64,000 bases of DNA from an uncultured Dehalococcoidia bacterium (lineage in GTDB: Bacteria > Chloroflexota > Dehalococcoidia > Lucifugimonadales > UBA1127): the NCBI GenBank assembly GCA_951812285.1, contig OX638292.1:2689001-2753000 (forward strand), in the 5' to 3' direction. The notes beneath the pieces are model-generated. The model had not been told where the DNA came from. It saw only the letters and a list, made by a program, of their open reading frames with translations, and made no database searches. The translations under genes and the position numbers were made by a program. Position 1 is the stretch's first letter; the number at the start of each line of letters is the position of its first letter. This document shows, in pieces, positions 14,814-41,190 of this stretch.

Positions 14814-14822
14814 CTCATTACC

Positions 14823-15713
14823 TCACGATGTCGTCAGCGTTCCAGTTACGCGCAGGCGTCGTTCCACAGCCTTGAATAGCCAGTACGTCAACAGGACGTA
14901 ACCCAGTGAAATGCCCACAATGATGGCCCATCGGATTGCCACGTAGCTAATATCTGGTGTTTCCTCTATGGACTCAACCATCGCCTCCATAGCCCAGGAA
15001 GAAGGCAATGCTCTACCGACATACTCCATACCAAAGGGGAGATGCGTCACCGGGAAAACGAACCCGCTAAAGACAATGCCAAAAGCCGTGATGGCATTGA
15101 AGAAGCCGCCTTGTCCCCGAACCAGAACCATGAGCGGCATGAAAAGTACGCTAACAGCCAACATACTGATATAGGCGATACACAGTGAAGTGGCGAACCA
15201 AAGCGGGTTATTCAATACCAACAGGTGCCCAGCCATGAGCACTGCAATGAAAAAGGCGACAGCGCCGGACAGAAGACCAGGCAGATACGTTGCAAGCGCC
15301 TTGCCGGTCATGACAATGGCGAGGGACGTCTTCGTCACGAGATTAGGCTCAAGGGTTCCTCCAAACCTCTCGCCGCCCAACGATTGTCCCACGCGAAACA
15401 CTCCGGTGTTCCAAGCAGAAAGTAGGATTAGGCCCATCGCCACGTACGTGAATATTACTGGATCTTCTTTTCGGGAGGCTATCCAGGTGACCATCGTCGC
15501 CGTAGGCACGTTATTCAACATGGAGTTGACGAGCGAGAAGGGGGACAGCACCGACTTGGACTGTTGGCGAAAGGCGGCAACAAGAGCGTACAAGTTACCC
15601 ATGCCGCTTCGATTTAATATGTTGAGTACGTTCACGCGTTCCGGCCTCGGAGTTAACCTGTCCGGTAGGGCCGATTCAGCAACCAAGTCGGACAGGAGAG
15701 ATTTATGCTCCAT
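14823..15713 (-). CDS. ABC-2 family permease, subunit A of pair 1
   Basis: This 296-aa permease subunit has an N-terminal cytoplasmic segment of about 60 residues, then six membrane stretches (for example YVAMGLILLSAWNTGVF, LLSGAVAFFIAVLMAG, IVGISLGYVLLTYWLF). It ends in AVERRLRVTGTL. It is clearly paralogous to the broken gene at 16737-17732, sharing VERRLR(V/I)TGTL, the GVFR(V/I)G motif and the NNVP motif. It is coupled to subunit B downstream. The start at 15713 overlaps the small frame upstream by 11 bases. Confidence 0.85.
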   Translation of the reverse strand: MEHKSLLSDLVAESALPDRLTPRPERVNVLNILNRSGMGNLYALVAAFRQQSKSVLSPFSLVNSMLNNVPTATMVTWIASRKEDPVIFTYVAMGLILLSAWNTGVFRVGQSLGGERFGGTLEPNLVTKTSLAIVMTGKALATYLPGLLSGAVAFFIAVLMAGHLLVLNNPLWFATSLCIAYISMLAVSVLFMPLMVLVRGQGGFFNAITAFGIVFSGFVFPVTHLPFGMEYVGRALPSSWAMEAMVESIEETPDISYVAIRWAIIVGISLGYVLLTYWLFKAVERRLRVTGTLTTS

Positions 15714-15941: not shown

Positions 15942-16740
15942 CTATACGGAGGACCTTTCCAGCCTGCCATTGCGCTTAGTGACATGCTCTACAGTCCGAA
16001 AGAGCCCGAAACCCACTGTCATGTAGACCCCGCCAACAGCTCTTGCCCCAATGCCGCTGCGCCATTACGCAATGGTTCGCTGTCGACGTAAAGCCGAATG
16101 GCCTCCAAGCTGTGGGTCAGTGGAAGCACGGACGATATCCTTTGCAGGGCAATTGGGAGTTCCGCCACCGGAATCACTGAACCGGCCAGGACGAGGACGA
16201 TGCCCGCCATCGTTAGGTACAGGCTTTGATAGTTTCTGATTGCAAAGGCGATGGACCTAGCAAACAGTGAGAACCCGATCGAGGACACGGACAGGGTCAA
16301 GATGGCAACGATCAGTGCGCCGTAGTTCATGGTTCCCCTATCAAGACCGAATGCGGCCCATGCGCCGATGAGACCACTCACAAAGACCAGTGGCCCATTT
16401 GGGAAATGAAAGACGCCTCTTGCCACATAGTTGAGGAACCGATTGCATGGCGTGGAAAACACCACGGATGCCGTTCCCCGGGCTCGTTCATAGTAGAAGC
16501 TCTGGACGATACCGACACATTGAGTCCAGACGATTGAGTAAGCAAGTCTTCCGACGACCAGGAAGGTCGCAGCGCTTTCGTCGATGGCGTACCGGCCAAT
16601 TAGGCCAAACAGAGTGACCATGAGAGCCGGGCGTATCAACACTTGGGGGATATAGGAACTAGGCATCCACCAGCCAAAGAGCCCCTTGTAGGTGAAACGG
16701 CTCTGATAGAACAGATTGAAGGCTCCGCTCTGATGTTCAT
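15942..16740 (-). pseudogene. Decayed ABC-2 permease, subunit B of pair 2
   Basis: This is a second copy of the 14016-14813 type. It begins with ATG at 16738-16740, overlapping the stop of its subunit A (ATGA). After five codons the frame must shift to continue as AFNLFYQSRFTYKGLFGW, which aligns with NFCYLGYSYYKGLFGW of copy 1. The main frame (about 16666-16019) matches the paralog. Near 16030 a second shift is needed to reach GVYMTVGFGLFRTVEHVTKR, equivalent to the paralog's C-terminus. The stop would be TAG at 15942-15944. With two frame breaks it is very likely non-functional. Confidence 0.75.
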
Positions 16741-17732
16741 GCCGTGCCCAACGTGCCGGTTATGCGCAGCCGTCGCTCCACCACCCCGAGAAGCCAGTAG
16801 GCGGCGAGAGCGTATGCAAGTGACAAACCCGCCACTATAAGCCAGCGCACAAAAATGTACTCGGTGGATTCACTCTACCCCGCCGCAGCTACGACAGACT
16901 CCATTGCCCACGGAGTCGGAAGCAACCTCGCTGGATTTTCCAAAACTGTGGGGAGCGCCGCGGCGGGGTAGACGAAGGCATTGAGCACCAATCCAAAGGC
17001 CGCCACAGTCCCGAAGAACCCAGCGCGGCCTTCCACGGGAACCAGCAATGGCGTGAACGGGAAGCTCGTAGACATGACGCCCAGGAAAGCCATGATCATG
17101 GACGGCGCGAAATAGAGCGGTGAGCCAATGTCCACCATTTGATTGCCGATGATTTGAGCAACGACAAATGCAGTCTGCCCCGAGAGAAGAGCTGGGATGA
17201 CCACAGCTAGTCCCTTGCCGGCCATGATGACCACCAAAGGGGTTCGCGATGTGAGACTGAACTCCAAGGTTTGCTGCCATCGCTCGTCGTCCAGGTCTGA
17301 ACCAATTCGAAACACGCCTCTATTCCAGAGAGCCAGCAAGACCACGCCAACAGATGCGTAGGTGAATCGCTCGGCATCTCCACTCCTGGTAGCGGTCCAG
17401 GCAATCACTGCGGACAGCGGGACATTGTTGGCAAACACATTAACGATTTCATCGGCTTGGAAGACAATCTTCAGCTGATTCTTGAAGATGGTTATGAGTG
17501 CGTAGACGTGACGGGAAAGTGGCGTCAAGAAGATCTCCTTAGCCAGCGGGCTACGGCTTGAATCAATGATAGAGGGATAGAAGGTCAGTTGAATGGGAGT
17601 GGAGAGACCACTAGCGTCATGAGAGTAGGGCAATCTCCATGTTCGGTGGGTGGCCACCCCTCGCTCCAGTTGGGCAACATGCAACAGCATGATGGCCTTC
17701 GAGCGACGAGTGGGCCGGACTCCTGTAGGCAC
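16737..17732 (-). pseudogene. ABC-2 permease subunit A of pair 2 with in-frame amber codon
   Basis: This is a paralog of the permease at 14823-15713. The frame is open from the 5' end to a TAG at 16875-16877. It then continues in the same frame with SESTEYIFVRWLIVAGLSLA and ends in VVERRLRITGTLGTA at 16737, exactly like the intact paralog's end. A single nonsense change therefore truncates the last transmembrane helix. The true start is uncertain; 17732 is the longest choice and ATG codons lie downstream. The 500 bases up to 18233 show no gene and separate it from the divergent ATPase. Confidence 0.8.
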
Positions 17733-19126
17733 GGGTGGTTCGCAGACTTGCTACCGCAAATGCCTGCGCGCGAATGCCTTTCATACTAAGTGACTCCTAG
17801 CTTGAGGGCTCCTTTCCTATGGGTGCACCATGCGCACGTAGTTCAAGGGGGAACACCTAACGGGCCGCGCGGTGTTCCGCCCCTACACAGGTCACTCGAC
17901 ACCAGTAGCTCGATGACGGACTGCGGCACCCTTCCGGTACCACATACGCTCCTCTAGATCGCCTTCGCCTAGCAGCCGGCATAGCCAGACCACCTAGTTC
18001 CTAGTCGCTCACGCCGATACAGAGTCCTGCGCGAATCTCTGGAAAGGCCAGATGGGTCAACTCAAGCCTGCTGACCCACTTGCACCAGGCCTCGACAGGT
18101 CTAGCGTTTCTCAGGGGACCAGTGTAAGTTGTATTGGAAGTAACCTCTGTCGGCGGTCGTGCGTTGCATTGCACTGTCAGAATACTCACCGTGGTCTTCA
18201 TGCTGGTTCGGGACGAAAAAGGAGGCGCATGACATGGTGGCAGACTCACCAGCCGTCGAATGTGTTGACCTGGGCCGGGTGTACGTCAGTCGTGGGCTGA
18301 CGGGGGGGAAGCGCGAAACCGTTGCCCTCAGGGACCTGAGCATTTCGGTCCCCAAGGGCATGGTGTTCGGTTTGCTGGGCCCGAATGGCGCTGGGAAGAC
18401 CACGACGGTCAAGATTCTCTCAACGCTCCTGACGCCGACCTCCGGCTTCGCCAGGATAGAAGGCCACGATGTGGTCAAGAGCGCTGGCCGTGTCCGAGAG
18501 AGGATCGGGTTAATCTTGGGAGGTGAACGGGGACTCTACGGCCGTCTCACGGGCTATGAGAATCTGCGGTACTTTGCGGCATTGAACCATATGTCGCCGG
18601 GGGATGCCAAACGCCGCTCGGAAAAGATGCTCGAGTTGGTTGGCCTTGCGGACCGCGGGGGCACGCTAGTGGAGCAGTACTCACGTGGCATGCGCCAACG
18701 GTTGCACCTCGCCCGTGGTCTTCTTTGCGAGCCCAGCGTGGTCTTCATGGATGAACCGACCATTGGCGTAGACCCAATAGGCGCCCAAGACCTTCGTGAA
18801 ATGGTCCCGCAACTGGTTGAACGCGGCATGACCGTGCTCTTGACGACCCACTACATGTTTGAGGCAGACCTGCTCTGTGACAGGATTGCTATCATTGACC
18901 AGGGTTCCCTCGTGGCACTAGGAACTCCGAGGGAGATCAAGGGTCAATTCTCCAACATGGGGGTAACCGAGATCACCATTAGGGTGCCTAGGCAAGGATT
19001 GCTGGAAGAAGTTTCCCAGATGGAGGGTGTTCTGAGAGCCACAGCCGGGTCTGACGGCTTGTTCCAGCGCATTATCTTAGGGAAGTATATACCTAACTAG
19101 CCAGCCGTCCTCGAGGAGATGCGATC

Positions 19127-19696
19127 CTATTCGACCTTCATCCACGGCCCGCAGGTGGACGTGAAGGCCATGTCCGTTTGCAGGATCTCCACGTAGGCGG
19201 CCCCCACCACGTTGCCATTGGCGAGGAGGTCATCGAAGCCGCCAGACAGGCCTCCTAGGCGGGCCCAATAACAGGAGTCCAAGACACTGTCACCCTCAAT
19301 GATTGTCCGGTAGAGCCCAGGCGCTATGTCGCTACCCACAAGCCATGTTCCTTCGCCGAAGTTGTCGTTCGGCGTGACCGGCCACTCAACGACCATGAAT
19401 GCCGGGCCGGGCTCTCCCTGTTTCCCCGCAGGACCCGCTGGGCCTTGTGGCCCCTGCGCCCCTACTGGTCCCTCTGGCCCTTGCGGTCCTGGCGGTCCCG
19501 CGGGCCCTGGTATGCCCGCCGCGCCAGGGATGCCTGTTGCTGCAGGGGACACTTGGCTTGCCGGGGTTGTTGGGGGCGCGGTGCCGGTGGTGGATGCCGT
19601 TGCTGCCTGAGGCACGTCGCAGCCGATGGACGCCAGGGCCACGAGCGCAAGAACACCGAGAACGACCAGGACGGTGATGCCGATAGACATCTTCAT
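19127..19696 (-). CDS. Collagen-like repeat lipoprotein, IS passenger gene
   Basis: This predicted exported protein has 189 aa. The start at ATG 19694-19696 (AAGGGG upstream) gives a classical signal: MKMSIG, a hydrophobic stretch and a lipobox-like ASIGC at about residues 24-28. A Thr/Ala/Pro-rich linker follows, then about 14 Gly-X-Y triplets ([20 protein letters not shown] and onward). The C-terminal domain has [27 protein letters not shown] and [11 protein letters not shown], a beta-rich, Cys-containing domain often found in exported actinobacterial and Chloroflexota proteins. It faces away from the transposase and ends 27 bases inside the left terminal repeat. Its likely role is at the cell surface. 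Confidence 0.75.
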
Positions 19697-19908
19697 GTTG
19701 AGACCCCTTGCGGTGAGGTTGCGCTCTCTCCCAAAAGCATCCCCCCATTCGCCCGCAAGGGGCCACGGAGGCAACCTCTCTAGGGGTTTACTCTTGGGAG
19801 AGAGCGTCGGTAGTGTAGGCGCACGGGGAGGGCGTGTCAAACTTGACGTCGATGGTTCAGGGTGTAGGATGCAGAAAATAGTAGTAGGAGTTTACGACAT
19901 GAGGAGGC

Positions 19909-20121
19909 TTACGGTTGGGGTGGAGATAAGCTGTACACGTCATCCAAAATCCGGCGGCACACCTGCCATACCTCCGCACAGTCCTCCTGAGACATCCCAG
20001 GAAACGTCCGGTTGTTGCCTTGAATCGATTCAAGGATGTGGTCAACCTGATCCCGTGGGGCTGCTCGAGAAAGACATTCGACAAGGATTACGATCGCTTG
20101 TACGTCCACGCGCCTAAACAC
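19909..20121 (-). CDS. Small hypothetical protein (70 aa), IS passenger
   Basis: Starting at GTG 20119-20121, GGAGG lies just upstream inside the Zn-ribbon gene, and this start overlaps that gene's stop (GTGTTTAG). The protein is helical and acidic (VDVQAIVILVECLSRAAPRD, EDCAEVWQVCRRILDDVYSL). I recognise no family. Coupling to the Zn-ribbon gene suggests a two-protein unit carried by the element. A chance frame cannot be excluded. Confidence 0.45.
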   Translation of the reverse strand: MFRRVDVQAIVILVECLSRAAPRDQVDHILESIQGNNRTFPGMSQEDCAEVWQVCRRILDDVYSLSPPQP

Positions 20122-20305
20122 GACGCCCTCCGCGCTGGAATGGCTTATCCCAATGCGGGCTCTTGCAACGAGGGCAGACCCGGGGCCGCTCTTCGCTGGT
20201 GAAGATGCGGGGGATCCACTCATGTCCACACCGGCAACGGTACGCCGTCACCGTCAACTCGAAGGCCCCGAGGCGTCCGTCCGTCGCGTCAGCTGTTGTC
20301 GTCAC
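20114..20305 (-). CDS. Small zinc-ribbon protein (63 aa), IS passenger
   Basis: Two Cys pairs form a likely zinc ribbon: YRCRCGHEW and PRVCPRCKSPHWDKP. Such short CGHxW ... CPxCxSxxW proteins are common partners of small operons; their biochemical role is not settled. The chosen start is GTG at 20303-20305, because AGGAGGTGGGTT sits directly before it, a better site than any upstream ATG. The 3' end overlaps the next small gene by 8 bases. It is divergent from the transposase. Confidence 0.6.
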   Translation of the reverse strand: MTTTADATDGRLGAFELTVTAYRCRCGHEWIPRIFTSEERPRVCPRCKSPHWDKPFQRGGRRV

Positions 20306-20404
20306 AACCCACCTCCTATTCTGGTATCCCATCCTACCACGCACGTTGTACCTTTAGGTAGCTACTTTCCTTGATAACCACTACTATGGCCGTAGTACAT
20401 CAAG

Positions 20405-21355
20405 GTGGGAATGGGCATGGCGCACAACGCACCGGGCAAGCACTCCCGCAAGGGGATCAGCCTTATCAAGCTGATCGAGATGTTCCCTGACGAGGCCGCG
20501 GCCGAGGGCTGGTTCGCCAGGGCACGGTGGGATGGGGGCGCGCCTACGTGTCCCTTCTGCGGCTCCCAGCGGGTAGCGACCATCGCCAACCGCAAGCCCA
20601 TGCCCTACCGCTGCAAGGAGTGCCGCAAGCACTTCTCCGTGAAGCACGGGACGGTCATGCAGTCAAGCAAGCTCGGTTGTCGGGTGTGGGCGATAGCGGT
20701 CTACCTGCTGACGACGGGGGTGAAGGGGACCAGCAGCATGAAGCTGCACCGGGACCTGGACGTGACCTACAAGTCGGCATGGCACCTCGCGCACCGGATC
20801 CGCCAGGCGTTCCCGCAGGTGACGGCCTTGTTCGCCGGGCCGGTGGAGGCTGATGAAACGGCCATCGGCGGGCTCGAGAAGAACAAGCACGCCGTCCACA
20901 AGTGGCGCCAGGGTCGAGGATCCGTGGGAAAGACCATCGTGCACGGGATCCTCGACCGGGAGACGAATCAGATCGTCGCGGGCGTGGTGACCATGCAGGA
21001 TGCCGCCACGCTGCAGGACCGCGTCCTGGCGGCGACGAAAGCTACGGCGCAGGTCTACACGGATGAAGCCGCGGCCTACATAGGCATTGCGCGGCGGCAC
21101 GAGGCCATCCGTCACGGCGCGGGCGAGTACGTGCGGGGCCATGCGCACACCAACGGGATTGAGAGCTTCTGGGCATTGCTCGACCGCGGCATCATGGGGA
21201 CGTTCCATCATGTCAGCCCGAAGCACCTTGACCGCTACGTCGGGGAGTTTGCGGGGCGGCACAATCAGCGACCCGCAGACACCATCATGCAGATGGCGTC
21301 CATCGCTGGCGGGATGGTTGGGAAGCGGTTAAGGTACGCCGACTTGGTCGCGTGA
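20405..21355 (+). CDS. IS1595-family (ISXO2-like) transposase
   Basis: This DDE transposase has 316 aa at most. An N-terminal zinc ribbon (CPFCGSQR ... CKECRKHFSV) recognises the ends. The catalytic core has VEADETAIGG, VYTDEAAAYIG and the Glu of NGIESFWALLDRG, the ISXO2 domain pattern (D, D, N/E variants). Several starts are possible within the first five codons (GTG 20405, ATG 20411, ATG 20417). The frame is intact and lies inside well-defined terminal repeats, so it is probably active. Confidence 0.93.
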   Translation: MGMGMAHNAPGKHSRKGISLIKLIEMFPDEAAAEGWFARARWDGGAPTCPFCGSQRVATIANRKPMPYRCKECRKHFSVKHGTVMQSSKLGCRVWAIAVYLLTTGVKGTSSMKLHRDLDVTYKSAWHLAHRIRQAFPQVTALFAGPVEADETAIGGLEKNKHAVHKWRQGRGSVGKTIVHGILDRETNQIVAGVVTMQDAATLQDRVLAATKATAQVYTDEAAAYIGIARRHEAIRHGAGEYVRGHAHTNGIESFWALLDRGIMGTFHHVSPKHLDRYVGEFAGRHNQRPADTIMQMASIAGGMVGKRLRYADLVA

Positions 21356-21389
21356 CGCCGCTCATGCACTAAAGGAGAGGGGAGCACAC

Positions 21390-21542
21390 ATGGCAAAGAA
21401 GGACCTCCGCAAAGGACAGCGATCCCGCCCCACAATCCCGTTGCCGAAAATAAACACAACGCCGGAGAAGCTGGCAAAGGAACTGCTGAAGCAACGCCCG
21501 TTGCGCGAGGTCGAACAAGAGAGGCAGAGGGAAGACGGCTAG
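21390..21542 (+). CDS. Small basic protein downstream of the IS1595 transposase (50 aa)
   Basis: ATG at 21390 is preceded by AAAGGAGAGGGG, an excellent ribosome site. The 50 residues are rich in Lys and Arg (AKKDLRKGQRSRPTIPLPKI, then TPEKLAKELLKQRPL). The TAG stop lies inside the right terminal repeat. The close coupling to the transposase gene (34 bases) suggests an accessory protein of the element. No domain is recognised. Confidence 0.6.
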   Translation: MAKKDLRKGQRSRPTIPLPKINTTPEKLAKELLKQRPLREVEQERQREDG

Positions 21543-21904
21543 TTAGGTATATAATTCCCTTATCTTATATACCCAGCTCGGTGCCAATCTTGAGCAGAAG
21601 ATTCGAGACCTTATCGGGAGCGAGAGCATAGAGGGCATGGTCACGCGCGAGCCCACCTTGGAGGAAGCCTACATCAGCATTCTCAGATAGCAGGCTCTCC
21701 AACATTGATCAATTCTTCGGCAAGTCTCGATTGGAAACGTCTCAACAGGTGCACTACTACGCTCGCCTCCTTCACCCTACTCCAGGAAATTCAAACGAAG
21801 GGGGCCAAGCTTAATAGATTCTTTGCTCAAGGTGATGAGGCGGAAAATACGGTCTTCAGAGGAGCGAGAAACTGAATTCACTTGGCCTTCGGCTCCCAGA
21901 CACA

Positions 21905-28395: not shown

Positions 28396-28517
28396 CCATC
28401 CCACCGTCCATAGGCTTGACTTTAGGCCTATAAATGGCGCCGGACAATACACTTTTCAACCGCCATAAGTCAGCGGCCATTCCGCCCACGTGGTCCACTT
28501 TACCTCCGCCTCTTACA

Positions 28518-29109
28518 CCCGGGATGGGAATCTTGGCAGTGTGCCATCCTCAAGCACCCGCCACAAATGCCGTTGCTCCGGCTCCCTCAGGGCCTCGGTC
28601 TCCAAACCGCAAACGGTGTTGGCCAGTGCCCCGTAACGGCACATGACGCTGACCAAGAGAATGCACTGCGGACGAAGGACCCGCACCAACTCCGAGGCCG
28701 CGCGATACCGGTGCTCGCAAACGTAGGAAAGAGCTTCGCCGAAACAAATGACCTTGTCGAAGTATCCATCGGAAAACTGGGACAGGTCCAGGATGTCACC
28801 TTCCACGAAGGCGTCTACCCCGTCTGATAGTCCAGCCTCACTCACCTTTTCTTTCGCGAGTTTCAATTGCCCCGAAGAAAGGTCTAGAGCGGTTACCGTT
28901 GCGCCAACGCCAGCGGCGGCAATGGCAAACCTGCCTGGTCCACAGCCGGCGTCAAGTACCCGGTCGCCGGGTTCGATGTAGCGCTCGACAGAGTCACTGT
29001 GAATGATAGCCTTCAGGCGACCATGGGCCGTGTCTTGGAGTCGTCCCTATTCCACAGTCCCGTACGCATCATAGAAGACGCTCGTATATTTCGCATCGTA
29101 GTCTGCCAT
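28518..29109 (-). pseudogene. Class I SAM methyltransferase, 5' part, with amber codon and IS21 insertion
   Basis: ATG at 29107-29109 follows GGAGGCGACCG. Codons read MADYDAKYTSVFYDAYGTVE, then TAG, then GRLQDTAHGRLKAIIH in the same frame; Trp is expected there by analogy with related methyltransferases. The SAM-binding motif is RVLDAGCGPGRFAIAAAG, followed by VTALDLSSGQL and DKVICFGEALSYV. The frame reaches the IS21 target site at 28518-28523 (CCCGGG) and resumes at 24303. The rebuilt protein would be about 285 aa. Two independent lesions make it a clear pseudogene. Confidence 0.82.
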
Positions 29110-29558: not shown

Positions 29559-31097
29559 TTACACACCTTGAAGCCCCCTACTTGGAGGATATCCCCAGTG
29601 CACTCCCAGAAATGAAGTCAGTTCCCACAATTGCTGCCTCATCTCAACGTACCTCTCTCGGTCTGACAATGATCTGTATCCACAATACAGTTCGACGTCT
29701 TCGATGGCCAATTCTTTACCAACAAACGCAGAGCACCTCTGAGCGTAGTCCATTGCACTCTCAAGTGAATCGGGCCAATCGGCCAAGAGAGCCTTCGCCT
29801 TTTCGTATACTTCCCTCCTTTTGGCCAAAGCTCTTCTAAGCGTTACAAAGCGGTCTTCGCTTCCAGTTGTAGAGAATCCTTGATAGTAAAGGAAGACGTC
29901 AATGCCTGCCAGTAGTATATTCCTGGCCACCACCGCGGCTAAAGCGGGTTGGCTGGACTCCTTTGCACCAGTCAAATCCCAGAGTCTGCCTCCGTAGGGC
30001 AAATGAAATCCTCGAACCGCGGAAGCTTGGCTTAGTGCGAAACTCGAAGCAGCCAGTCGTAGTCTTTGGACCCGGGCAGCTGAGCGATGTTGGTATGTAC
30101 GGTGCGATATATCTTCGGCCTTAAACTCATGTAAATGGGGCACTACTCTGATTAATCCAAAGTTCTTCATTGCCCGTACAAAACCACGTTGTGTTAGTGA
30201 GGACCGATTGTTGCTGCTGGATTGAGGCACCCAAACGGCCGTGTCCGCCAAATCTATCCAGACTGCTTTGCCTGCAGGGTTGATGTGGTATACGTGTGTC
30301 TTATTTTGTACTAGATAGCTCTTAGATCCTACCGTAAACTCTTGGACTTGGGTACCTCTAGACAGCTCCCAGGCGATCTTTCGATCACGGCGGCCGAGGA
30401 TATATTCGCAATATGATCTAACCAGTTCAAAGTAGGCAGTGGGATCTGACGCATCTATCCGTTGGGTGGCCCATGCTTCCCTAAATTCAATACTAGATTC
30501 GCCAAAGGTCCGGGCCATCTTTTGAAATCGCCATTTCCTTGACGGGAACCCTTCACCGCTATTGGCCAACAAAGAATCGATGGTCCACTGCGCTGCGTCA
30601 AGACTAAGAAGTGCCGCTCCCCATGCATCTCCGGCCGCTAAGAGAACTTCTGCTTGCGTCAAGGCTAACCTTGATTTCTGAGAACACCATACAGCGTAGA
30701 GCTTCGAGATATGCTCCTTATTGAACAATATCTTCAGTTTGGCAAACTCAGTTTCGTTGTACACAGCTACGGCAATCGAGGTTCGATAATAGACATCTAT
30801 TGAGGCGTCGCTTAGCGAATAGATCTGTTTCTCGTCATTAACGGCTATTGCATTGATCCTATGAGCAAGACTTGTCAGCCATGATCGGGAATAGGTCTCT
30901 ATGTCCATGAACAGGTCCCGAAAGGGAAGAATACGTGGTCCTGCTATGGAGGAATCGTCTCCATCGCCGTCATCTATGACGAACACGTCAAAGTCAGATG
31001 TAGTATTGCCGAATCCCTCATGTCGGGAACCTGACACATAGACTACGTTACTCGCTGACGTAATTATGCGCTCAATGGGCAACTTGTCACTTGACAT
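29559..31097 (-). CDS. Nucleotidyltransferase-fold protein with PqqD-like segment
   Basis: This 512-aa protein starts with a polymerase-beta-type nucleotidyltransferase domain: VYVSGSRHEGFG followed by TTSDFDVFVI (GS motif and two Asp at about residues 35 and 37). A helical middle resembles the HEPN/KNTase C-terminal type. Residues about 255-320 (VGSKSYLVQNKTHVYHINPA, then GKAVWIDLAD) resemble PqqD, the small peptide-binding chaperone domain of RiPP pathways. The last 190 residues are helical and unrecognised. GGAGGGAGAGTC precedes the ATG. PqqD-like proteins and nucleotidyltransferases recur next to HPr-kinase-like genes, and such a kinase is encoded at 35134, so a shared pathway is likely. 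Confidence 0.7.
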   Translation of the reverse strand: MSSDKLPIERIITSASNVVYVSGSRHEGFGNTTSDFDVFVIDDGDGDDSSIAGPRILPFRDLFMDIETYSRSWLTSLAHRINAIAVNDEKQIYSLSDASIDVYYRTSIAVAVYNETEFAKLKILFNKEHISKLYAVWCSQKSRLALTQAEVLLAAGDAWGAALLSLDAAQWTIDSLLANSGEGFPSRKWRFQKMARTFGESSIEFREAWATQRIDASDPTAYFELVRSYCEYILGRRDRKIAWELSRGTQVQEFTVGSKSYLVQNKTHVYHINPAGKAVWIDLADTAVWVPQSSSNNRSSLTQRGFVRAMKNFGLIRVVPHLHEFKAEDISHRTYQHRSAARVQRLRLAASSFALSQASAVRGFHLPYGGRLWDLTGAKESSQPALAAVVARNILLAGIDVFLYYQGFSTTGSEDRFVTLRRALAKRREVYEKAKALLADWPDSLESAMDYAQRCSAFVGKELAIEDVELYCGYRSLSDRERYVEMRQQLWELTSFLGVHWGYPPSRGLQGV

Positions 31098-33363: not shown

Positions 33364-34332
33364 ATTCAACGTGCGCGGCTCGATGGCTCGATTGGGCAGA
33401 ACCTCAAGGTACGGTGGGTCGAGGGCGACGAGACCTGCACAATCCGTTGCTCCAACACAAGAATGTTCCGACTATCTCTTGTAATACCTACGGCGTTAGT
33501 GACATCTAGTCCTAGATGGCAATTACCCAAATAAATCATGGGGCCCGCCTTTCAGGAAAGCGAAATCGAGTATGCCAGACCGTTCTTGCAGGGCCTCGGA
33601 ACCGGACAAGCGGGCACCCATAGGCCAACACTGATGACCTGTTAACCTCCCGGGTGAGATTGACGTCTCTTTTGGCATCTACGTTGGCTATGTCCGGCAG
33701 AGAAAGATCTATGGCCAGTGAACCCTAGAAACGGCGCTTGGGGCTCCACGGCCCATGCGAGGAGCCCCAAGGAGCCACCATCGGGTGGAAGACGTCAAGA
33801 CGTCGCATCTCCATGCCTCCATGACAAGGATGCCCTTCCGGAGGAACACAAGGTTGACGAACAGACTAAACAAGAAGATCCGGAAGGATACTCACACGCA
33901 AGTGCTGTGATCCTCAGAGTATACTGGATGGGGCCACACATGAGCGTAGGTGACGGCACCCTAGCGCTCATTCCCGAACTCACGGTTCATGTGGTTGGGC
34001 GTAAGGGCCTCGTCCGGAAATTGCCATAACGAAACTAAGACATGACCCAACGTATTCGTTAGTGTACGGTGAATGATGCGTGCAGTTACAATCCTCTCCT
34101 CGGACAGCCATAGTTGTTCCTTCCACTTTGGCCCGGCAAAGGCAATTAACATCACATTTGGGTTCCAACAAAGGCAGCAGTAGTGTGGGAGGACTCCTTT
34201 TGGAGACGACTGCACTAGTAAACGATTCGTTCGAAGGCGTCCCTCTTGCAAGTCAGCCGAGTTGCACCAATGTTACCTTTGGTATTGTCCCTTTCAACGC
34301 TGACTCGATGTGCGCACTTGAGGAAAAATGGA
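33364..34332. other. Gene-free spacer
   Basis: About 970 bases between the IS30 remnant and the HAD gene. A minus-strand frame (33961-34251) contains PKWKEQLWLSEERIVTARII, which looks protein-like but has no start signal and no family I know. It may be debris of a lost gene. Confidence 0.4.
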
Positions 34333-35040
34333 ATGACTACAGGCGACTATTCGCAACGAATACTAAGAGCGGTAATCTTTGACCTCTACGGCACGCTTGT
34401 GGACGATGGAGACGTGCCAGGGCTTCGGCGCAGAGTTTGCATTGTGGCGATTGCCGAAGCTCTTGGCGTACGTGCCGATGAGTTTGAGAGGCTATGGGAT
34501 GCACACTTGGATGCTCGAATGAACGGGTTCCATCCTACATTTGAGCAATTGGTCACATCGTTGTGTGGTGAATTGGGAATTGCACCGTCGCCCTCACAAG
34601 TGGCGGAAGCTCGCAGACTTCGCATGGAGCAAATAAGGGGTCTACTGGCGCCAAAGGTCGGTTGCGTGGAAGCGCTAGGCATGATTCGAGGGATGGGGTA
34701 TAAGTTAGGCCTCATTAGCGATTGTTCTTGGGAAACAGTGAGTCTTTGGCCAGAGACACCATTCCTACCCCTCTTTGACGTGACGGTCTTTTCCTGCGTA
34801 ATTGGCCTTATGAAGCCGGACCCACAGGTTTATACGTTGGCCTGTCGAACTCTTGAGGTTGCGCCGGAGCGATGCCTGTACGTCGGCAACGGGGGCAGTG
34901 ACGAACTTGCTGGCGCCGAGCGGATAGGGATGAAAGTCTTGCGCATCCAAGCCCCCTATGAAGTCCCTCCAGACCACGCGAGGCCATGGGTCGGGCCGAA
35001 GGTTTCAACATTGTGTCAAGTGATCGAGTGGCTAACTTGA
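34333..35040 (+). CDS. HAD-superfamily phosphatase
   Basis: This HAD hydrolase has 235 aa. Motif I is VIFDLYGTLVDD, motif II is GLISDCSWE, motif III is the Lys of GLMKPDPQVY and motif IV is CLYVGNGGSDELAGAERIGM. The ATG at 34333 is chosen because the domain begins about ten residues later and GAGG lies upstream; the frame is open for 29 more codons without domain content. It is convergent with the operon at 35134-41190. It could remove a phosphate made by the kinases there, but this is only suggested by position. Confidence 0.85.
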   Translation: MTTGDYSQRILRAVIFDLYGTLVDDGDVPGLRRRVCIVAIAEALGVRADEFERLWDAHLDARMNGFHPTFEQLVTSLCGELGIAPSPSQVAEARRLRMEQIRGLLAPKVGCVEALGMIRGMGYKLGLISDCSWETVSLWPETPFLPLFDVTVFSCVIGLMKPDPQVYTLACRTLEVAPERCLYVGNGGSDELAGAERIGMKVLRIQAPYEVPPDHARPWVGPKVSTLCQVIEWLT

Positions 35041-35133: not shown

Positions 35134-36195
35134 TCAGGGTTTGTTCAAGTACTCTAGTAACGACTTCCAATCAGTACCGCCCCATGGATTCCCCTCAGCC
35201 ATTAGCCACAAAGAAGGGCGGAGCAAATTCATTTGATCCTGCTCTGTCTCCAAGAAGTGTGGATTCTCAGCTTCTATCCAAGTCGGAGTTACTCTGTCCT
35301 TAACATTGGCGCTAGCTGCACTTGCTGCCAATTTATGCCGGTCCCTATCACACGCTACCAATGTGGCTGATCGCTGTGTCAGATCAAGACGACAGTCAAC
35401 CACGACTTCTAACCGGCAGTCCGCCCGAATTGACCACCCAAACGCTTCCCACAACTCCGGGTGAAAAGCGTATGCCTTTCGCCCAATCACTCTCGCCCCA
35501 TTTAGGCGTCTCAGCCAATTCACTGCATCCATTGCTTCAAGGGATATTGCTACCGCATATGGTAAACCCCGAACAATCACTCCCCCGTTGTCCTTGCGCC
35601 ATAATGCCTTGTCGTTCGCGATGTATTCCAATCCCGGGATATCTTTCATTGCAGAAAATAAAAAGGAAGTCTTTCCCGCTCCTTTATCTCCAACGAACAT
35701 TATACCCCTTGAGCCCATTGATGCAAATGCGCCATGAACTCTCTTCCATCCAGCTCTAATGAGATCAAATATGACCATCCCTCGAACAATCTGAAGCACA
35801 TCGATGCCATTGTCTAAGGTTTCGTTGGCATAATCCAGATACACCTTGTGCTGGTCCCTGTCCACGTGATAAACGGCCGCTCCATCATGCCTTATTGCCG
35901 TGAGTAGGGACCCCAGATGATAGAGATCTGCTAAGTGCTCTGAATGGAGAATGGTTTCGGTCTTCGGGCCTTGGGGGGTCACCTTATGGTGCTTGAAGCC
36001 GGCGGTGATTTCGACAACCCATTCCGTGGGGTCGCGCAACTGAAGGTCTTCCTTGCGTACGACAAAGAAAGGTTCGCACGTGGAAGCCAAGCATTCTAGC
36101 AGAGTCCACGAATTCGACACAACCCAAAGCCCCTTTCCAGGCAAAGGCTCCACGCGGAGACATGCGAACGCTCTCATTGGTCTTTCATTTTCCAC
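35134..36195 (-). CDS. HPr-kinase-like P-loop protein
   Basis: This 353-aa protein resembles HprK-related kinases. A non-conserved N-terminal part of about 150 residues precedes VHGAFASMGSRGIMFVGD and the P-loop GDKGAGKTS (K175, T176), followed by LEYIANDKALWR in the position of the HPr kinase acid loop. Such kinases without an HPr partner are known next to PqqD-like and nucleotidyltransferase genes in uncharacterised modification systems. It is the last gene of the minus-strand operon, and its start overlaps the end of the dTMP-kinase-like gene by 22 bases, so it is translationally coupled. The substrate is unknown. Confidence 0.72.
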   Translation of the reverse strand: MENERPMRAFACLRVEPLPGKGLWVVSNSWTLLECLASTCEPFFVVRKEDLQLRDPTEWVVEITAGFKHHKVTPQGPKTETILHSEHLADLYHLGSLLTAIRHDGAAVYHVDRDQHKVYLDYANETLDNGIDVLQIVRGMVIFDLIRAGWKRVHGAFASMGSRGIMFVGDKGAGKTSFLFSAMKDIPGLEYIANDKALWRKDNGGVIVRGLPYAVAISLEAMDAVNWLRRLNGARVIGRKAYAFHPELWEAFGWSIRADCRLEVVVDCRLDLTQRSATLVACDRDRHKLAASAASANVKDRVTPTWIEAENPHFLETEQDQMNLLRPSLWLMAEGNPWGGTDWKSLLEYLNKP

Positions 36196-36806
36196 AAGGC
36201 GGCCAATATCCCATTCGACAATTGGCGTGCAAGGATCTCTGCAGCGCGTGTGCCGTCAACTACCCACCAACGCTCCAGATCCCAGGCGGCTAGTTGGAGA
36301 TATGCGCTCCTTGCCTCAGTTTGGTAGGCCAGGTAGGCATCAATTTGGTTCCCTGATGTGGTTCGAAGCCAAAGAGGCCCACCCGCTTCAGCGAGCGAAA
36401 TGTGGGCCTTCCGTGCGACTGCGATTTGCGGTGGGGTATCTATCAATATAGTAAGGTCAGGCTGCTGTACCGTCGCCCATATGCTCGCCACTAGTGTTTG
36501 ATCGACCTCGTAAGCGATAGCATCCGACAAAGGTGAGGCAATGTGCCGATGGAAGAGCAAAATCTCATCGTCTGCCATTGGCGTATTGTGGAGCAGATCC
36601 GCAACACATGCGGCGCCCATGAATAAGCTCGTCAGTGGGTCAGGAAATGTCGCCTCTTCCTGGATGAGGGATTTGTAGACCTGTCGCAAGGATGTAGTGC
36701 GGTCTATTACGCGTACCAAAGCGCCGGCCACCGCAAGGTGTCGTGAAATGAGGCTAATCTGTGTAGATTTCCCCGCCCCGTCAATGCCCTCGAAAGCCAC
36801 TAGCAT
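36174..36806 (-). CDS. Thymidylate-kinase-like P-loop kinase
   Basis: This 210-aa protein starts MLVAFEGIDGAGKSTQISLI, the dTMP kinase P-loop. FHRHIASPLSDAIAYE fills the place of the usual DR(Y/F) substrate motif, and ILIDTPPQIAVARK corresponds to the lid-side strand. The start at ATG 36804-36806 overlaps the FGE-like gene by seven bases and is preferred over upstream codons that have no domain content. Divergence in the substrate region suggests a specialised nucleotide, sugar or protein kinase rather than housekeeping Tmk. Confidence 0.75.
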   Translation of the reverse strand: MLVAFEGIDGAGKSTQISLISRHLAVAGALVRVIDRTTSLRQVYKSLIQEEATFPDPLTSLFMGAACVADLLHNTPMADDEILLFHRHIASPLSDAIAYEVDQTLVASIWATVQQPDLTILIDTPPQIAVARKAHISLAEAGGPLWLRTTSGNQIDAYLAYQTEARSAYLQLAAWDLERWWVVDGTRAAEILARQLSNGILAALWKMKDQ

Positions 36807-37537
36807 CTGCTCATTACCGTAGCACCCGGAAAGACGACTCGAATGCCAGTAGCGTCTCCACCATGAAAAGGCCACTTACCAGAGCGTAGGTCCGATCGCA
36901 CATCCAGAGTACTGCGGTTATATGATGCTCCACGGACCGTCTTCATCACTTGTTCAGACCACTCAATTTGTACATTTCTGTCCAGAGCGAAAGGGGCGCC
37001 GGGGTGATACCAGTCGGCACACCATTGGCGGACGTTGTTGTAGCAATCGGCTAGGCCCCACGGTGTGAGGACAGTGTCTGCCGATGGAACTGGCAAGATT
37101 CTAGTTGACTGGTTGTAGTATGTGCATGCCGAAACCCAGGCTTCATTCGTCATTCCTGAGCGAGCGGCGACTTCCCACTCCGCCTCTGTAGGGAGTCGTC
37201 CCCCTATTGCCGCAGCAATGGCCTTGGCTCCCCACCATGTGATTCCAACAGCTGGCAGGTCGCCTCTGCCAGGAGAGGGTATGAGCCTACCCTCCGAACG
37301 CATGTAACCCAAGTGTCCGTTAACCTCATTAACATAGCGATAGGTGCCATCCATGTTTGGCTGGAATGCCATATCGGCAAGAATCTTAGTTACTTCCAAT
37401 GTCGTTAGCGTTCGTTGAGTGACGAAGAATTCGTGCAGTTTGACTGCATAGGAGTGCTCCTCGGAAGTAAGTGAGTAAATGCCGCCTGGAACATGGACAG
37501 CCGCCGCCCGAAGGGCCGTGGCGATATCACACATCAT
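36800..37537 (-). CDS. SUMF1/FGE-family protein
   Basis: This 245-aa protein of the formylglycine-generating-enzyme fold shows the usual order: PAVGITWWGAKAIAAAIGGR, LPTEAEWEVAAR, PWGLADCYNNVRQWCADWY (in place of GLYDMLGNVWEWC), VRGASYNRS and TGIRVVF. Family members oxidise Cys in sulfatases, or catalyse oxidative reactions on histidine-type substrates (EgtB/SenA), or lack activity. The catalytic Cys pair cannot be assigned here, so the activity is open. It overlaps the sulfotransferase stop by 11 bases and the next gene by seven. Confidence 0.78.
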   Translation of the reverse strand: MMCDIATALRAAAVHVPGGIYSLTSEEHSYAVKLHEFFVTQRTLTTLEVTKILADMAFQPNMDGTYRYVNEVNGHLGYMRSEGRLIPSPGRGDLPAVGITWWGAKAIAAAIGGRLPTEAEWEVAARSGMTNEAWVSACTYYNQSTRILPVPSADTVLTPWGLADCYNNVRQWCADWYHPGAPFALDRNVQIEWSEQVMKTVRGASYNRSTLDVRSDLRSGKWPFHGGDATGIRVVFPGATVMSRC

Positions 37538-38438
37538 AGTTAAGCCGCTCCATTACCCTCTTTGCAATAGCTGTGATGGTATTTGCCTGGCTTGGCGACA
37601 GCTCTTCGCGCCATTTGTGAATTACGTCGCCCGGCGACCTAAAGTAAGAGAAGGTCGAGTCGTCTTGGGCACTGTCCGAACGCCATGTTTCTTCCAACAG
37701 GGCCATTTGTCGTGGATCAGGTATAAGTCCCAAATGTCCCATAAGTTCTTCGATAGTGGTCCGCGGATCAGCCAGTAAGTCCTCTAACCGTAGAATCAAC
37801 CACTCGTTTTGGGTTGCATACTGCTGAACGATTTCTGTGCGCACCGTCCAAACTATGCTAGCCGCAACCACAGGGTCTTCTACATCGAACTGTTCAAATT
37901 GAGGTCTGCCAGCGCGATATCTCCGTCCTAATCTCGCGTATTCCCACCAAGACTCCAATAGATTGTTGCGAATGAGAGAAGCAATCGTCGCTCTCGGGTC
38001 TCGTAGAATCAGAACGCCACGCAATGGACCCAATGCGGCATCTATCCACGAGAGCTTATGAAGCAAGAAGGTTTCTTTAAACCCCCTAACGCCAGGCAGT
38101 TCCGCCCATAACCAGCGACGCAAGTTGATAATGTATGTATGAAGATAGGAGTCCACTGGAATGCTAGGATGAAGCGCTCGAATGCCCAAATCTTGGGCTG
38201 ACCAGGGATCCAATTCAGAGTCCCGAAATAGGGGTACATGTTGTGAAAAGGGCTCATTTATCGAATCTGCCATGGCGTGACATTTTATGAGATTGTGTAA
38301 CAAGGATGTACCGGACCTGTGTTGGCCAAAAAGCAGAAATGGCTGCCCCATAAAGCACCCTTCCCATCTGATCGCGTTAACGTTGTATCTTCCGCTAGAT
38401 GTATTGGGCAAGACGTTACCATTGTCTTCAAGAGACAC
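37527..38438 (-). CDS. PAPS-dependent sulfotransferase-family protein
   Basis: This 303-aa protein has the 5'-phosphosulfate loop FLLFGQHRSGTSLLHNLI near residues 34-51, the 3'-phosphate motif LILRDPRATIASLIRNN, and a C-terminal PGDVIHKWREELSP segment typical of sulfotransferases. It should move sulfate from PAPS to a hydroxyl or amine, in family terms. An internal ATG 30 codons in (MGQPFLLFGQ) is an alternative start. It lies 43 bases after the Nudix gene and is coupled to the FGE-like gene. No PAPS synthesis genes are in the window. Confidence 0.82.
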   Translation of the reverse strand: MSLEDNGNVLPNTSSGRYNVNAIRWEGCFMGQPFLLFGQHRSGTSLLHNLIKCHAMADSINEPFSQHVPLFRDSELDPWSAQDLGIRALHPSIPVDSYLHTYIINLRRWLWAELPGVRGFKETFLLHKLSWIDAALGPLRGVLILRDPRATIASLIRNNLLESWWEYARLGRRYRAGRPQFEQFDVEDPVVAASIVWTVRTEIVQQYATQNEWLILRLEDLLADPRTTIEELMGHLGLIPDPRQMALLEETWRSDSAQDDSTFSYFRSPGDVIHKWREELSPSQANTITAIAKRVMERLNYDV

Positions 38439-38481: not shown

Positions 38482-38943
38482 CTATAGGCCTAGATCGGAT
38501 TTGTTACCCATAAAGGGGAGTGAGGAATGGGGGTGAGGATGAAGTGAGCGAAGGAAACAAACGAAAGCCCTTCCAAATCCGAGTTCGGGTAGAGTCGCTA
38601 TAGGCTTGAAAGCAACGGCAGAAATTGGGTTTTCCTCAAAGCCTGGAGAAGGAATCCTTAAACCACCCCCCACACGAATCACCTGAAATCCTATGTCCAC
38701 AACTGAGTTCTCTTTGTCAAATCGGTGGGCTAGGTAAGAGAGGGACAGCACCTCAGTCTCTAGGCCCGTCTCTTCCTTCATCTCCCGCTGACATGCGTCA
38801 AGTAGTGTCTCGTGTATCTCGAGGCGCCCTCCGGGAAGGGACCACTCACGATTCGAAGAGATTCTCTGCCGCACTAATAGAACATTAGCGTCCTCCAAAA
38901 GGATACCCGAAACCCTCACTTCGTAAAGTCCCGTCGAGTTCAC
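38482..38943 (-). CDS. Nudix hydrolase
   Basis: This 153-aa protein has a complete Nudix box: GGRLEIHETLLDACQREMKE followed by ETGL (Gx5Ex7REUxEExGU). The preceding VLLVRQRISSNREWSLPGG is the typical substrate-side strand. It hydrolyses a nucleoside diphosphate-X compound; which one is not clear. The start overlaps the aminotransferase stop by four bases (ATGA), showing translational coupling inside the operon. Confidence 0.88.
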   Translation of the reverse strand: MNSTGLYEVRVSGILLEDANVLLVRQRISSNREWSLPGGRLEIHETLLDACQREMKEETGLETEVLSLSYLAHRFDKENSVVDIGFQVIRVGGGLRIPSPGFEENPISAVAFKPIATLPELGFGRAFVCFLRSLHPHPHSSLPFMGNKSDLGL

Positions 38944-40113
38944 GATGCGTGCTCCGCAACTGATTGGACTGCTTTCTCGAACGCCATTATGGAGTAGAGT
39001 ATGTCATCATCATCGTGGGCTGCACAGACGAAACTGTTGTGGCCATCAAGGAATAGTGCACCGAAAGAGGCGGATGCCCGAATGATTTGTGTTCGGAGTT
39101 CTTGGGCATCCTTTGATGCAGAGTCAGCATGAAGGTGAGGCATACATGGCCAACGATATGGTATTGCCTGTAACCGATCGCCTATGCCGCATTTCCTAAG
39201 AATTTGATTGAGCCCTACCAACAACTCACTCCCAGTCTTGGCAAGCATGGTTGGGATGTCCACCTCGTCGAGAAGACGTAATGTGGCGATTGCCGCGGCA
39301 ATCGCTCCAAGTTCCTCACCAAACGTACCCTTTATCCGAGCGGGCTTACGGAGAGCTAGAAATGGGGATGAGGTTATGACAGCGGCAAGGGGCAAGCCAT
39401 TTGCTATGCCCTTGCCAGCTATAGTTATGTCAGCACTTACTCCCGAGAGTTCTTGAACACCCCCGCGCGCAACTCGACAGGCTGTCTTGGTTTCATCGAG
39501 GACAAGGACGGAACCTGCTACAGAGGTTACAGAACGAATAGCTGCCAGACTCTCTTTAAGGTCACCCGGGAGTTGGATCGGGTCAATTACTACGCAGGCT
39601 AGTCGGTCTGCATGGGATCGGATAAGGGAGACCAAATCGTGAAGTTGACTGCCAGAAAACACTACCCTGTTTGAGACAGCTTCTTTAGTCACGCCAAGAA
39701 CTGGCGTCGCGCTACCGTGCTTCTTGTCGTAAACATGCCACTCAAGGCCAGCATCTATGAGTTCGTCGTGCCACCCGTGATATCCAATCCGGATAATGAG
39801 GGGACGCTTTGGTATAGGCGCGCGCCAAGCGAATTGCTGCCCCTACACCCTCGGAGGCAGTCTTGAAGAAAATGCAGCCGTCTTCAGCAGGGTACCTTGA
39901 AACAAGCATTTCTTCTAGTCGGCGAACTTCGACCGAGGCCCCTGGCAAAAGGGTGCCTCCAGCCACCCGAGATGCCACAGCGGATGTGATTTCTTGGACG
40001 CCATGGCCAAGAATCACAGGCCCATAACCGCATATCCAATCAACGTACTCCTTGCCGGATTGGTCAATGCATCTCCCGCCTCTGCCTGAAACCATTAATC
40101 GCTCAGTTGCCAT
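38940..40113 (-). pseudogene. Class III aminotransferase (glutamate-1-semialdehyde aminomutase-like), frameshifted
   Basis: The PLP enzyme starts MATERLMVSGRGGRCIDQSG and KEYVDWICGYGPVILGHG. Near 39805-39810 one extra base (AAAGCGTCCC on the minus strand) breaks the frame. In the other frame RPLIIRIGYHGWHDELIDAG continues without gap through VLVLDETKTACR (cofactor Asp) and ITIAGKGIANGLPLAAV (PLP Lys) to the stop at 38940. The rebuilt length of about 390 aa is normal. All neighbours in the operon are intact, so this is either a recent lesion, a programmed shift or a base-call error. The family interconverts amines and aldehydes or ketones. Confidence 0.82.
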
Positions 40114-40125
40114 TGTGCTTCCTTT

Positions 40126-41190
40126 TCATTGCCCTACAGCAGCAGATCCTCTTTGATTGGAGGACCGGTTGGACCGGCTAGTGTACACTTCATCAATAAT
40201 TCGATACACATCCAACTCTTCACGGAACGTGGGGCATGGCTCAGTTCTACCTGCCACCGAGTCAAAGAACTTACGTAATTCAGTTCCGTAGCCCGCCGTT
40301 TCATATCCAGCGTCTAAGTGTCGGGTTCGCCAGTATTCTCTCCCCCCTGGGAGCTGAGCATCCCTTGACTCTTGAGCACGATGAACTACTAGCTCTGATG
40401 GAGACGTAACCTCAATGACCTGATTGTCAACTGTGACTATATGAACGTGAAGAAGAAACCTAGGAGCAGCAGTCGAAACGACCACCTGCGCGCTTTGTCC
40501 ACGTTTCGTTTCAAGGTGTGAAGAAAGCGTGAATACTCCACCAATGGCCGGTTGCAAGTGGTGAGATACGTTATCCGCTTTGCCAATAGCAGACAAAGCA
40601 AGGTCAAAGGCATGTATCGCGTGAGTCAAGAGAAAGGCAGTCAGTGGCGCTTCACCCCATCGTGTACCTCTCGGGCCAGATGCGTAGTATTGAATGGAAA
40701 TACTGCTAACACTAGTAGCTTCGAGAATCTCGGAAACTCTGGCCCAAGCAGCAGTATATCTCAAATTGTGGGCAACCATGCCAATTCTGTGGCAACGTTC
40801 TGCCACTGTCGCCATAGAATGTAATTGTCTTGTAGTCAATGCGGGAGGTTTCTCTACCAAGACGTGGGCACCAAGTTGAAGCGCGGTTTCAGCAGCAGTT
40901 GCATGTAGTTGAGGCGGCCCTGCCATCACTACGACATCGGGTCTTAGGCGATGACAGAGTGCCGAGAAGTCAGCGTCTGCAGCTTCAATGTTATATTCCC
41001 TTGCGGCCCGCAAGAGGCGGTCTTCAGCATAGTCACAGACGCCAACGACCCGTGCGCAGCCAAGCGATACCAATGCTGGGAGCAATGTTGCCATCCCGTG
41101 CTCTCCACAGCCGACAAACACCACTCTAGGCAAACTTGCCTCGTTCATAGACGATCTCAGCTCATCGAGCATTCTATTCTCTTTCCCCAT
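40126..41190 (-). CDS. Gfo/Idh/MocA-family oxidoreductase
   Basis: This 354-aa NAD(P)-dependent dehydrogenase has the Rossmann motif VVFVGCGEHGMATLLPALVS, VVVMAGPPQLHATAAETALQ and the active-site Lys in HVLVEKPPALTT. The C-terminal domain carries ALTAFLLTHAIHAFDLALSA with a His in the catalytic-helix position. The family oxidises or reduces sugars and cyclitols. It is the first gene of the minus-strand operon, 12 bases before the aminotransferase; together they could oxidise and aminate a cyclic alcohol. The start is uncertain, since ATGs at codons 1, 7 and 15 are possible. Confidence 0.87.
   Translation of the reverse strand: MGKENRMLDELRSSMNEASLPRVVFVGCGEHGMATLLPALVSLGCARVVGVCDYAEDRLLRAAREYNIEAADADFSALCHRLRPDVVVMAGPPQLHATAAETALQLGAHVLVEKPPALTTRQLHSMATVAERCHRIGMVAHNLRYTAAWARVSEILEATSVSSISIQYYASGPRGTRWGEAPLTAFLLTHAIHAFDLALSAIGKADNVSHHLQPAIGGVFTLSSHLETKRGQSAQVVVSTAAPRFLLHVHIVTVDNQVIEVTSPSELVVHRAQESRDAQLPGGREYWRTRHLDAGYETAGYGTELRKFFDSVAGRTEPCPTFREELDVYRIIDEVYTSRSNRSSNQRGSAAVGQ

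Follow-up and report, generated by a model that had tools for sequence, protein, structure and literature searches.

P0001, a 512-residue protein encoded in a 64,000-nucleotide stretch of DNA from an uncultured Dehalococcoidia bacterium (the whole stretch is called the window here; its source genome is a single contig of 2.86 Mb), joins a nucleotidyltransferase (NTase) to an internal PqqD/RRE-like domain, and our working interpretation, in which we have about even confidence, is that it is an RRE-guided tailoring NTase of a RiPP-like (phosphopeptide) natural-product pathway. The DNA itself shows how the domains are ordered, that the catalytic residues and the surrounding gene set are conserved, that a PqqD gene lies beside the NTase gene in unfused relatives and that an IS has inserted in the window; from these we infer peptide binding, the nature of the transferred group and the order of the steps.

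Domain organization of P0001 and its relatives

The P0001 ORF (29559–31097, minus strand) starts at an ATG with a good ribosome-binding site, GCTGGAGGGAGAGTC, and its product has the order NTase, helical, PqqD/RRE-like, second helical, with both helical parts putatively HEPN-like. In the alignment of its relatives, residues 1–125 (30723–31097, minus) form a pol-beta/MNT-type nucleotidyltransferase domain with the catalytic signature G23-S24, D35-x-D37 and a third Asp, D65, so the GS...DxD nucleotidyltransferase site named in the first-pass annotation is indeed present. Residues 126–245 (30363–30722, minus) form a helical substrate domain that carries a G-x(6)-KW motif (G181, K188) and is probably HEPN-like; residues 245–324 (30126–30365, minus) are the PqqD/RRE-like segment supported by profile–profile comparison, and residues 335–512 (29562–30095, minus) are the second helical domain, which is a separate overlapping gene in two other genomes, G644 and G526.

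P0001 alone had no match in Pfam, NCBIfam, the PDB, phages, plasmids or genome contigs, and a single weak relative, in G526, was found among 247 genomes of its order. Further relatives were reached solely through G526 and G644 (Chloroflexota, same class, another family), the latter found with an alignment (E = 3e-22), and plasmid searches yielded those of S. virginiae, Exiguobacterium, S. durmitorensis, Nonomuraea, Parageobacillus and Corynebacterium. Among the ten NTases of the family that are joined by phmmer matches, S24, D35 and D37 are retained almost throughout and D65 in nine; S. virginiae has G-A instead of G-S, and S. durmitorensis has a His at the position of the third Asp. The G644 homolog exceeds the PF01909 cut-off (23.2 versus 21 bits), and P0001 itself gives no PF01909 match in the Pfam search.

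G644 encodes a 362-residue NTase–helical–PqqD-like protein whose end is overlapped by the gene for a second helical protein of 190 residues. P0001 residues 8–209 are 28% identical to the former (E = 6e-27) and residues 361–437 are 34% identical to the latter (E = 3e-7), and because P0001 thus aligns to both G644 genes, the PqqD-like part is internal in P0001 through the merger of two neighbouring genes. G526, a Chloroflexi MAG, has an NTase gene followed by an overlapping second gene whose product weakly matches NTase_sub_bind (E = 0.15). NTase–helical–PqqD-like chains are found in five members (window, G644, G526, S. virginiae and S. durmitorensis), and the PqqD part is absent from the members in G053 and Exiguobacterium. 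On the S. virginiae plasmid (L046:8488-11400) the NTase–PqqD fusion has unusual neighbours, namely an mtnA homolog and two proteins that resemble nucleoside-diphosphate kinases.

Identity of the PqqD-like segment

PqqD/RRE domains are small domains with which bacteria bind precursor peptides. The strongest support for a PqqD identity of the segment is the genomic context in unfused relatives. On the Parageobacillus and Corynebacterium plasmids the NTase ends at the helical domain and an annotated PqqD gene follows with a 4-base overlap; the products of these two genes pass PF05402 (E = 7e-11 and 5e-15), and their best NCBIfam match is lasso PqqD. The observation in the first-pass annotation that P0001 is a single fused chain stands; in these plasmids the two parts are separate overlapping genes.

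The segment, which includes SYLVQNKTHVYHINPAGKAV at about residues 260–279, is more difficult to recognize in isolation: single-sequence Pfam and NCBIfam HMM searches call no PqqD in P0001 (no PF05402 match), and single segments of family members match PqqD weakly. We compared a profile of the segments of P0001, G644, G526 and S. virginiae with an alignment of 24 PF05402 PqqD domains from Chloroflexota by hhalign, and obtained a match of 94.6% (P = 7.3e-8, score 40.0) over columns 9–67 of 67; 200 column shuffles had a mean score of 8.9 (sd 2.1, maximum 19.7) and always remained below half of the real value. With S. durmitorensis included the match was 92.2%. The P0001 segment by itself gave 36% (P = 4e-4) and a score of 22.1 that is higher than all 200 shuffles (maximum 17.4), in an alignment that covers the strand half and is poor in the helical half. 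AlphaFold2 models had a pLDDT of 35 (whole chain) and 47 (segment, two-row prediction), values too low for a confident fold or for recognition of the beta3-alpha3 winged helix of PqqD/RRE domains. Profile comparison thus supports a real PqqD-like segment, which the first-pass annotation had placed at about residues 255–320, while the Pfam and NCBIfam family calls are negative. A C-terminal PqqD domain suspected by eye on the Parageobacillus HAD protein was unsupported (0.8%).

A shared gene set around the NTase

In G644 the genes lie within about 9 kb in the order HAD, sulfotransferase, a SUMF1 + cytidylyltransferase-like + HprK-like fusion, second helical protein, NTase–PqqD, ABC ATPase and two ABC-2 permeases. 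Apart from the cytidylyltransferase domain, each of them has a homolog in the window, with E values from 1e-9 to 1e-118. The G644 fusion (L014:8047-10347) is a 766-residue protein with SUMF1/FGE-like, cytidylyltransferase-like and HprK-like kinase domains, the last of which has a sub-threshold TIGR04355 match (E = 1e-8). The window HprK-like kinase (35134–36195, minus; 353 residues, P-loop GDKGAGKTS) is homologous to the C-terminus of this fusion (E = 2e-9) and to a Parageobacillus HprK-like kinase (E = 2e-8) that is encoded about 6 kb from the NTase there. Since G644 holds homologs of both kinase and NTase within a few kb, the window kinase, 4–5 kb away from P0001, belongs to the same gene set as the NTase, in agreement with the link that had been drawn between them; no kinase was present within the 20 kb read in G526.

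The remaining shared genes of the window encode a SUMF1/FGE-like enzyme (36800–37537, minus; PF03781 E = 5e-24; homolog in the G644 fusion, 1e-9), a sulfotransferase (37527–38438, minus; PF13469; G644 homolog E = 5e-16), a HAD-family phosphatase (34246–35040, plus; PF00702; G644 homolog E = 5e-11), an ABC exporter ATPase (below) and the exporter's ABC-2 permease pair (14016–15713, minus), whose members are 41% and 37% identical to the G644 pair (E = 6e-62 and 2e-46). A second permease pair at 16019–17732, a weaker homolog adjoining the first, indicates a tandem duplication of the exporter permeases. Relative to G644 the window has in addition a thymidylate-kinase-like (TMPK-like) P-loop kinase (36174–36875, minus; PF02223 E = 1.2e-15), a NUDIX hydrolase (38482–38943, minus), which is a cluster gene without a G644 counterpart, a class-III aminotransferase (38940–40113, minus) and a Gfo/Idh/MocA oxidoreductase (40126–41190, minus) whose top NCBIfam match, under the cut-off, is inositol 2-dehydrogenase; a SAM methyltransferase gene lies at 28513–29109 (minus). 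TMPK-like kinases occur near the NTase at five loci (window, Exiguobacterium, Corynebacterium, Nonomuraea and S. durmitorensis). The genes are apparently a scattered, undescribed set for a modified natural product. The Exiguobacterium sp. Helios plasmid (L047:226-17334) has a natural-product cluster of its own, with the NTase, the TMPK-like kinase, alanine--tRNA ligase genes, an APH-like kinase, an MFS protein and an S66 peptidase.

Probable decay of the window copy

The P0001 reading frame itself is intact, and several of its neighbours are damaged. The exporter ATPase gene is split: its 5' part (18159–19079, plus) is 58.5% identical to residues 1–282 of the G644 ATPase (E = 1e-118), and its last 40 codons restart at 21562, where tblastn matches G644 residues 281–320 to 21562–21684 (plus). 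Between the two parts lies an IS1595-like element (19080–21559, no strand assigned; family name given by eye) with 24-bp inverted repeats, an 8-bp target duplication, TTATCTTA, and a transposase ORF at 20405–21355; it also carries a collagen-like Gly-rich ORF (19127–19840, minus). More transposase genes lie between P0001 and the HprK-like kinase. The aminotransferase is frameshifted into two ORFs and the methyltransferase has an in-frame TAG, either of which could be decay or sequencing error; the IS insertion cannot be a sequencing error. From the split ATPase, the frameshift and the stop we conclude that the window pathway is probably dead, that is, interrupted and non-functional, unless the small lesions are sequencing errors.

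Candidate precursor peptides

Three relatives, of three genera, have unannotated ORFs for 23–24-residue KKxYxxP peptides near their unfused NTase loci: MKKTYSTPKVTEVKVNTAVIINV (L050:5193-5264) and, in Corynebacterium, MKKAYRKPEATKAEFGAIMAWPG (L053:11208-11279), each just upstream of a CPBP protease gene, and, in Nonomuraea, MAVKKRYVKPVVRHIDLLGAVIID (L049:6257-6331), about 5.6 kb from the NTase. YxxP is the motif bound by RREs in lasso and linear polyphosphorylated peptide (LPP) leaders (PMC13381572, PMC9266682). Across 341 kb of other loci the KKxYxxP pattern turned up a single time, beside another PqqD, and it was absent from all 60 shuffled sets; this count is partly post hoc because the pattern was seen at one locus before it was searched for. 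On Corynebacterium glyciniphilum pCgly1 (L053:9368-13070) genes for a GNAT protein, an extra tryptophanyl-tRNA ligase, the 23-residue KKxYxxP ORF, the CPBP protease, the NTase and PqqD are consecutive, an arrangement suggestive of a cluster for a tRNA-synthetase inhibitor.

Searches of the window, G644, G526 and the Streptomyces loci revealed no precursor, so a peptide is only a putative substrate for the fused branch. In the window and G644 there was no credible YxxP candidate: the YxxP ORFs of the window were ruled out since they overlap other genes or IS sequence, 29047–29109 is the N-terminus of the broken methyltransferase, and the small ORFs common to the window and G644 spacers are just short chance matches. 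The earlier statement that no precursor is evident thus holds for the window, but three relatives do have nearby KKxYxxP peptides. Elsewhere, in Chloroflexota genome G011, an unannotated 48-residue ORF, MNKKTYTKPEIVQVKLVPTEAVLGGCKTDTSEVALGSYCNSTCPTIGT (L028:2847, plus), lies near a PqqD gene and is likely a Cys-containing RiPP precursor.

Comparison with known systems

The first-pass annotation had proposed a variant of the HprK-related gene sets. With the HPr-rel-A system (TIGR04352/TIGR04353 + NTase) the window shares the trio of HprK-related kinase, PqqD and NTase. However, the three window proteins match none of its models: P0001 has no match at E ≤ 1 in Pfam to PF14907, which we take to be the NTase family of both the HPr-rel-A set and the lasso pathways, the segment does not match TIGR04353 (HPr-rel-A PqqD), and the kinase does not match TIGR04352 and reaches TIGR04355 only below threshold (E = 0.03). 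The window NTase is moreover of the MNT/pol-beta type and fused, and the proposal was not borne out for the HPr-rel-A set as it is curated.

Two described pathways resemble the window set in logic. The P. alginolyticus lpp cluster, which makes LPP, has an HprK-like kinase, an NTP transferase, an RRE, an exporter and YxxP precursors (PMC13381572), and in the paeninodin/pseudomycoidin lasso pathways an HprK-like kinase (PadeK/PsmK), an NTase (PsmN) and a PqqD-type RRE act on a peptide (PMC9266682). In both, the HprK-like kinase phosphorylates a serine, and the presence of a further group on this phosphate depends on the NTase (PMC13381572, PMC9266682); PsmN reportedly leads to a hexose on the phosphoserine (PMC9266682), and LppN is termed uncharacterized (PMC13381572). 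The window resembles LPP in its HprK-like kinase and NTP transferase, whose family may differ from that of LppN, and the unfused relatives in their YxxP peptides. LPP has an SpI-like peptidase, a discrete RRE, an MsbA-like exporter and precursors of 35–200 residues; by contrast, the window has its RRE-like domain fused to the NTase, an ABC-2 exporter with separate subunits, additional SUMF1, sulfotransferase and TMPK-like genes and no precursor seen there, and the unfused relatives have CPBP protease genes and 23–24-residue peptides. The combination of HprK-like kinase, NTase and PqqD-type RRE is shared with the lasso pathways, yet neither of their hallmarks, the Asn-synthetase-like cyclase and the B2 peptidase, is among the scanned genes of the window set. 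By analogy, the window set would work like these HprK/RRE/NTase pathways, yet it fails the HPr-rel-A models and is without the discrete RRE and fused exporter of LPP.

Alternative explanations

Sugar, cyclitol and polyketide genes surround several of the relatives, so the most serious rival, although we judge it rather unlikely, is that the NTase acts on a free small molecule (an aminocyclitol, sugar or nucleoside product) in the manner of aminoglycoside nucleotidyltransferases. Its reaction would then be part of the biosynthesis or would protect the producer by inactivating the product, and the PqqD-like domain would be a scaffold or a binder of some other partner. Antibiotic NTases consist of an MNT-type catalytic domain plus a helical domain, a layout that P0001 shares, and P0001 has the catalytic GS, DxD and third Asp and the helical second domain of the MNT/NTP_transf_2 small-molecule enzymes. 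The neighbourhoods fit as well: the window cluster has the inositol-dehydrogenase-like oxidoreductase and the aminotransferase, Parageobacillus has myo-inositol-1-phosphate synthase and a DegT-like aminotransferase, and the Exiguobacterium genes include those for CDP-glucose dehydratase, an APH-like kinase and additional alanyl-tRNA ligases. Unlike the small-molecule enzymes, however, P0001 has an extra PqqD-like domain and biosynthetic kinase neighbours, PqqD coupling, fused or overlapping, recurs in three phyla, and KKxYxxP peptides are present at the unfused loci. We regard as very improbable that the segment is no more than a decayed linker or a small winged helix of a generic kind, with the kinase nearby by chance; the segment does fall under the Pfam and NCBIfam thresholds and its structure models have low confidence, but its profile score is far above the shuffles, its register agrees with PqqD, relatives have unfused PqqD genes at the same position, and the kinase is co-conserved in G644.

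Improbable, though less so, is that the unfused loci make microcin C-like peptidyl-nucleotide "Trojan horse" compounds, in which the NTase would put a nucleotide on the 23–24-residue peptide and the target would be an aminoacyl-tRNA synthetase, with the window a related, decayed branch. The microcin C NTase, MccB, is of a different nucleotidyltransferase fold, which speaks against this. Nonetheless, the neighbours of CPBP–NTase–PqqD at the Corynebacterium locus are an additional tryptophanyl-tRNA ligase, a GNAT gene and an ABC transporter, and the candidate precursor there ends in ...IMAWPG; at the Exiguobacterium locus an S66 peptidase is encoded along with alanine--tRNA ligases. Microcin C producers employ GNAT and MccF-type immunity (PMC9239234), and neither the window nor the G644 set contained recognisable immunity genes of this kind. 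The additional synthetase genes at these two loci, with the GNAT and S66 peptidase genes, hint at peptidyl-nucleotide antibiotics and should be taken as a lead only. Finally, NTase and HEPN-like domains occur together in MNT-HEPN toxin–antitoxin modules, of which P0001 could be a one-chain fusion, and the Parageobacillus relative is weakly MntA-like (E = 1e-4, far under the cut-off). We find this hardly credible and rejected it together with a role in defence: the R-x(4-6)-H RNase motif is absent from the two helical domains of P0001 and the second domain of G644, its one occurrence in the G526 ORF falls in the first residues, outside the aligned domain, a PADLOC search gave no match of weight, and the neighbours are conserved biosynthetic genes.

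Proposed function and implications

In the tailoring pathway that we favour, the PqqD-like domain of P0001 would bind a small precursor peptide by its leader, or a peptidyl carrier, and the MNT-type domain, together with the helical domains, would catalyse transfer of a nucleotidyl (or related phospho-) group; that an RRE-like domain presents the peptide to such an NTase is suggested by analogy with LPP and paeninodin/pseudomycoidin. The acceptor would be a side chain or a phosphate put on by the neighbouring HprK-like kinase, which the TMPK-like kinase perhaps extends, the SUMF1-like enzyme, sulfotransferase and HAD phosphatase would tailor the product further, and the ABC-2 transporter would export it. 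A broader reading, which we consider doubtful at present, is that RRE-coupled MNT-type NTases, accompanied by TMPK-like kinases, HprK-like kinases or both, are the mark of a so far unrecognised RiPP class that occurs in Bacillota, Actinomycetota and Chloroflexota. This class would be built on nucleotidylated 23–24-residue KKxYxxP peptides, possibly tRNA-synthetase inhibitors, and in its Chloroflexota branch the RRE would be fused to the enzyme, with SUMF1 and sulfotransferase steps as additions.

RREs are repeatedly accompanied by HprK-like kinases and NTases. P0001 and its relatives possibly couple a different NTase family to the RRE, and the unfused versions, which occur with tiny candidate precursors on two sequenced plasmids and in Nonomuraea, would offer a compact system in which the NTase reaction could be measured directly.
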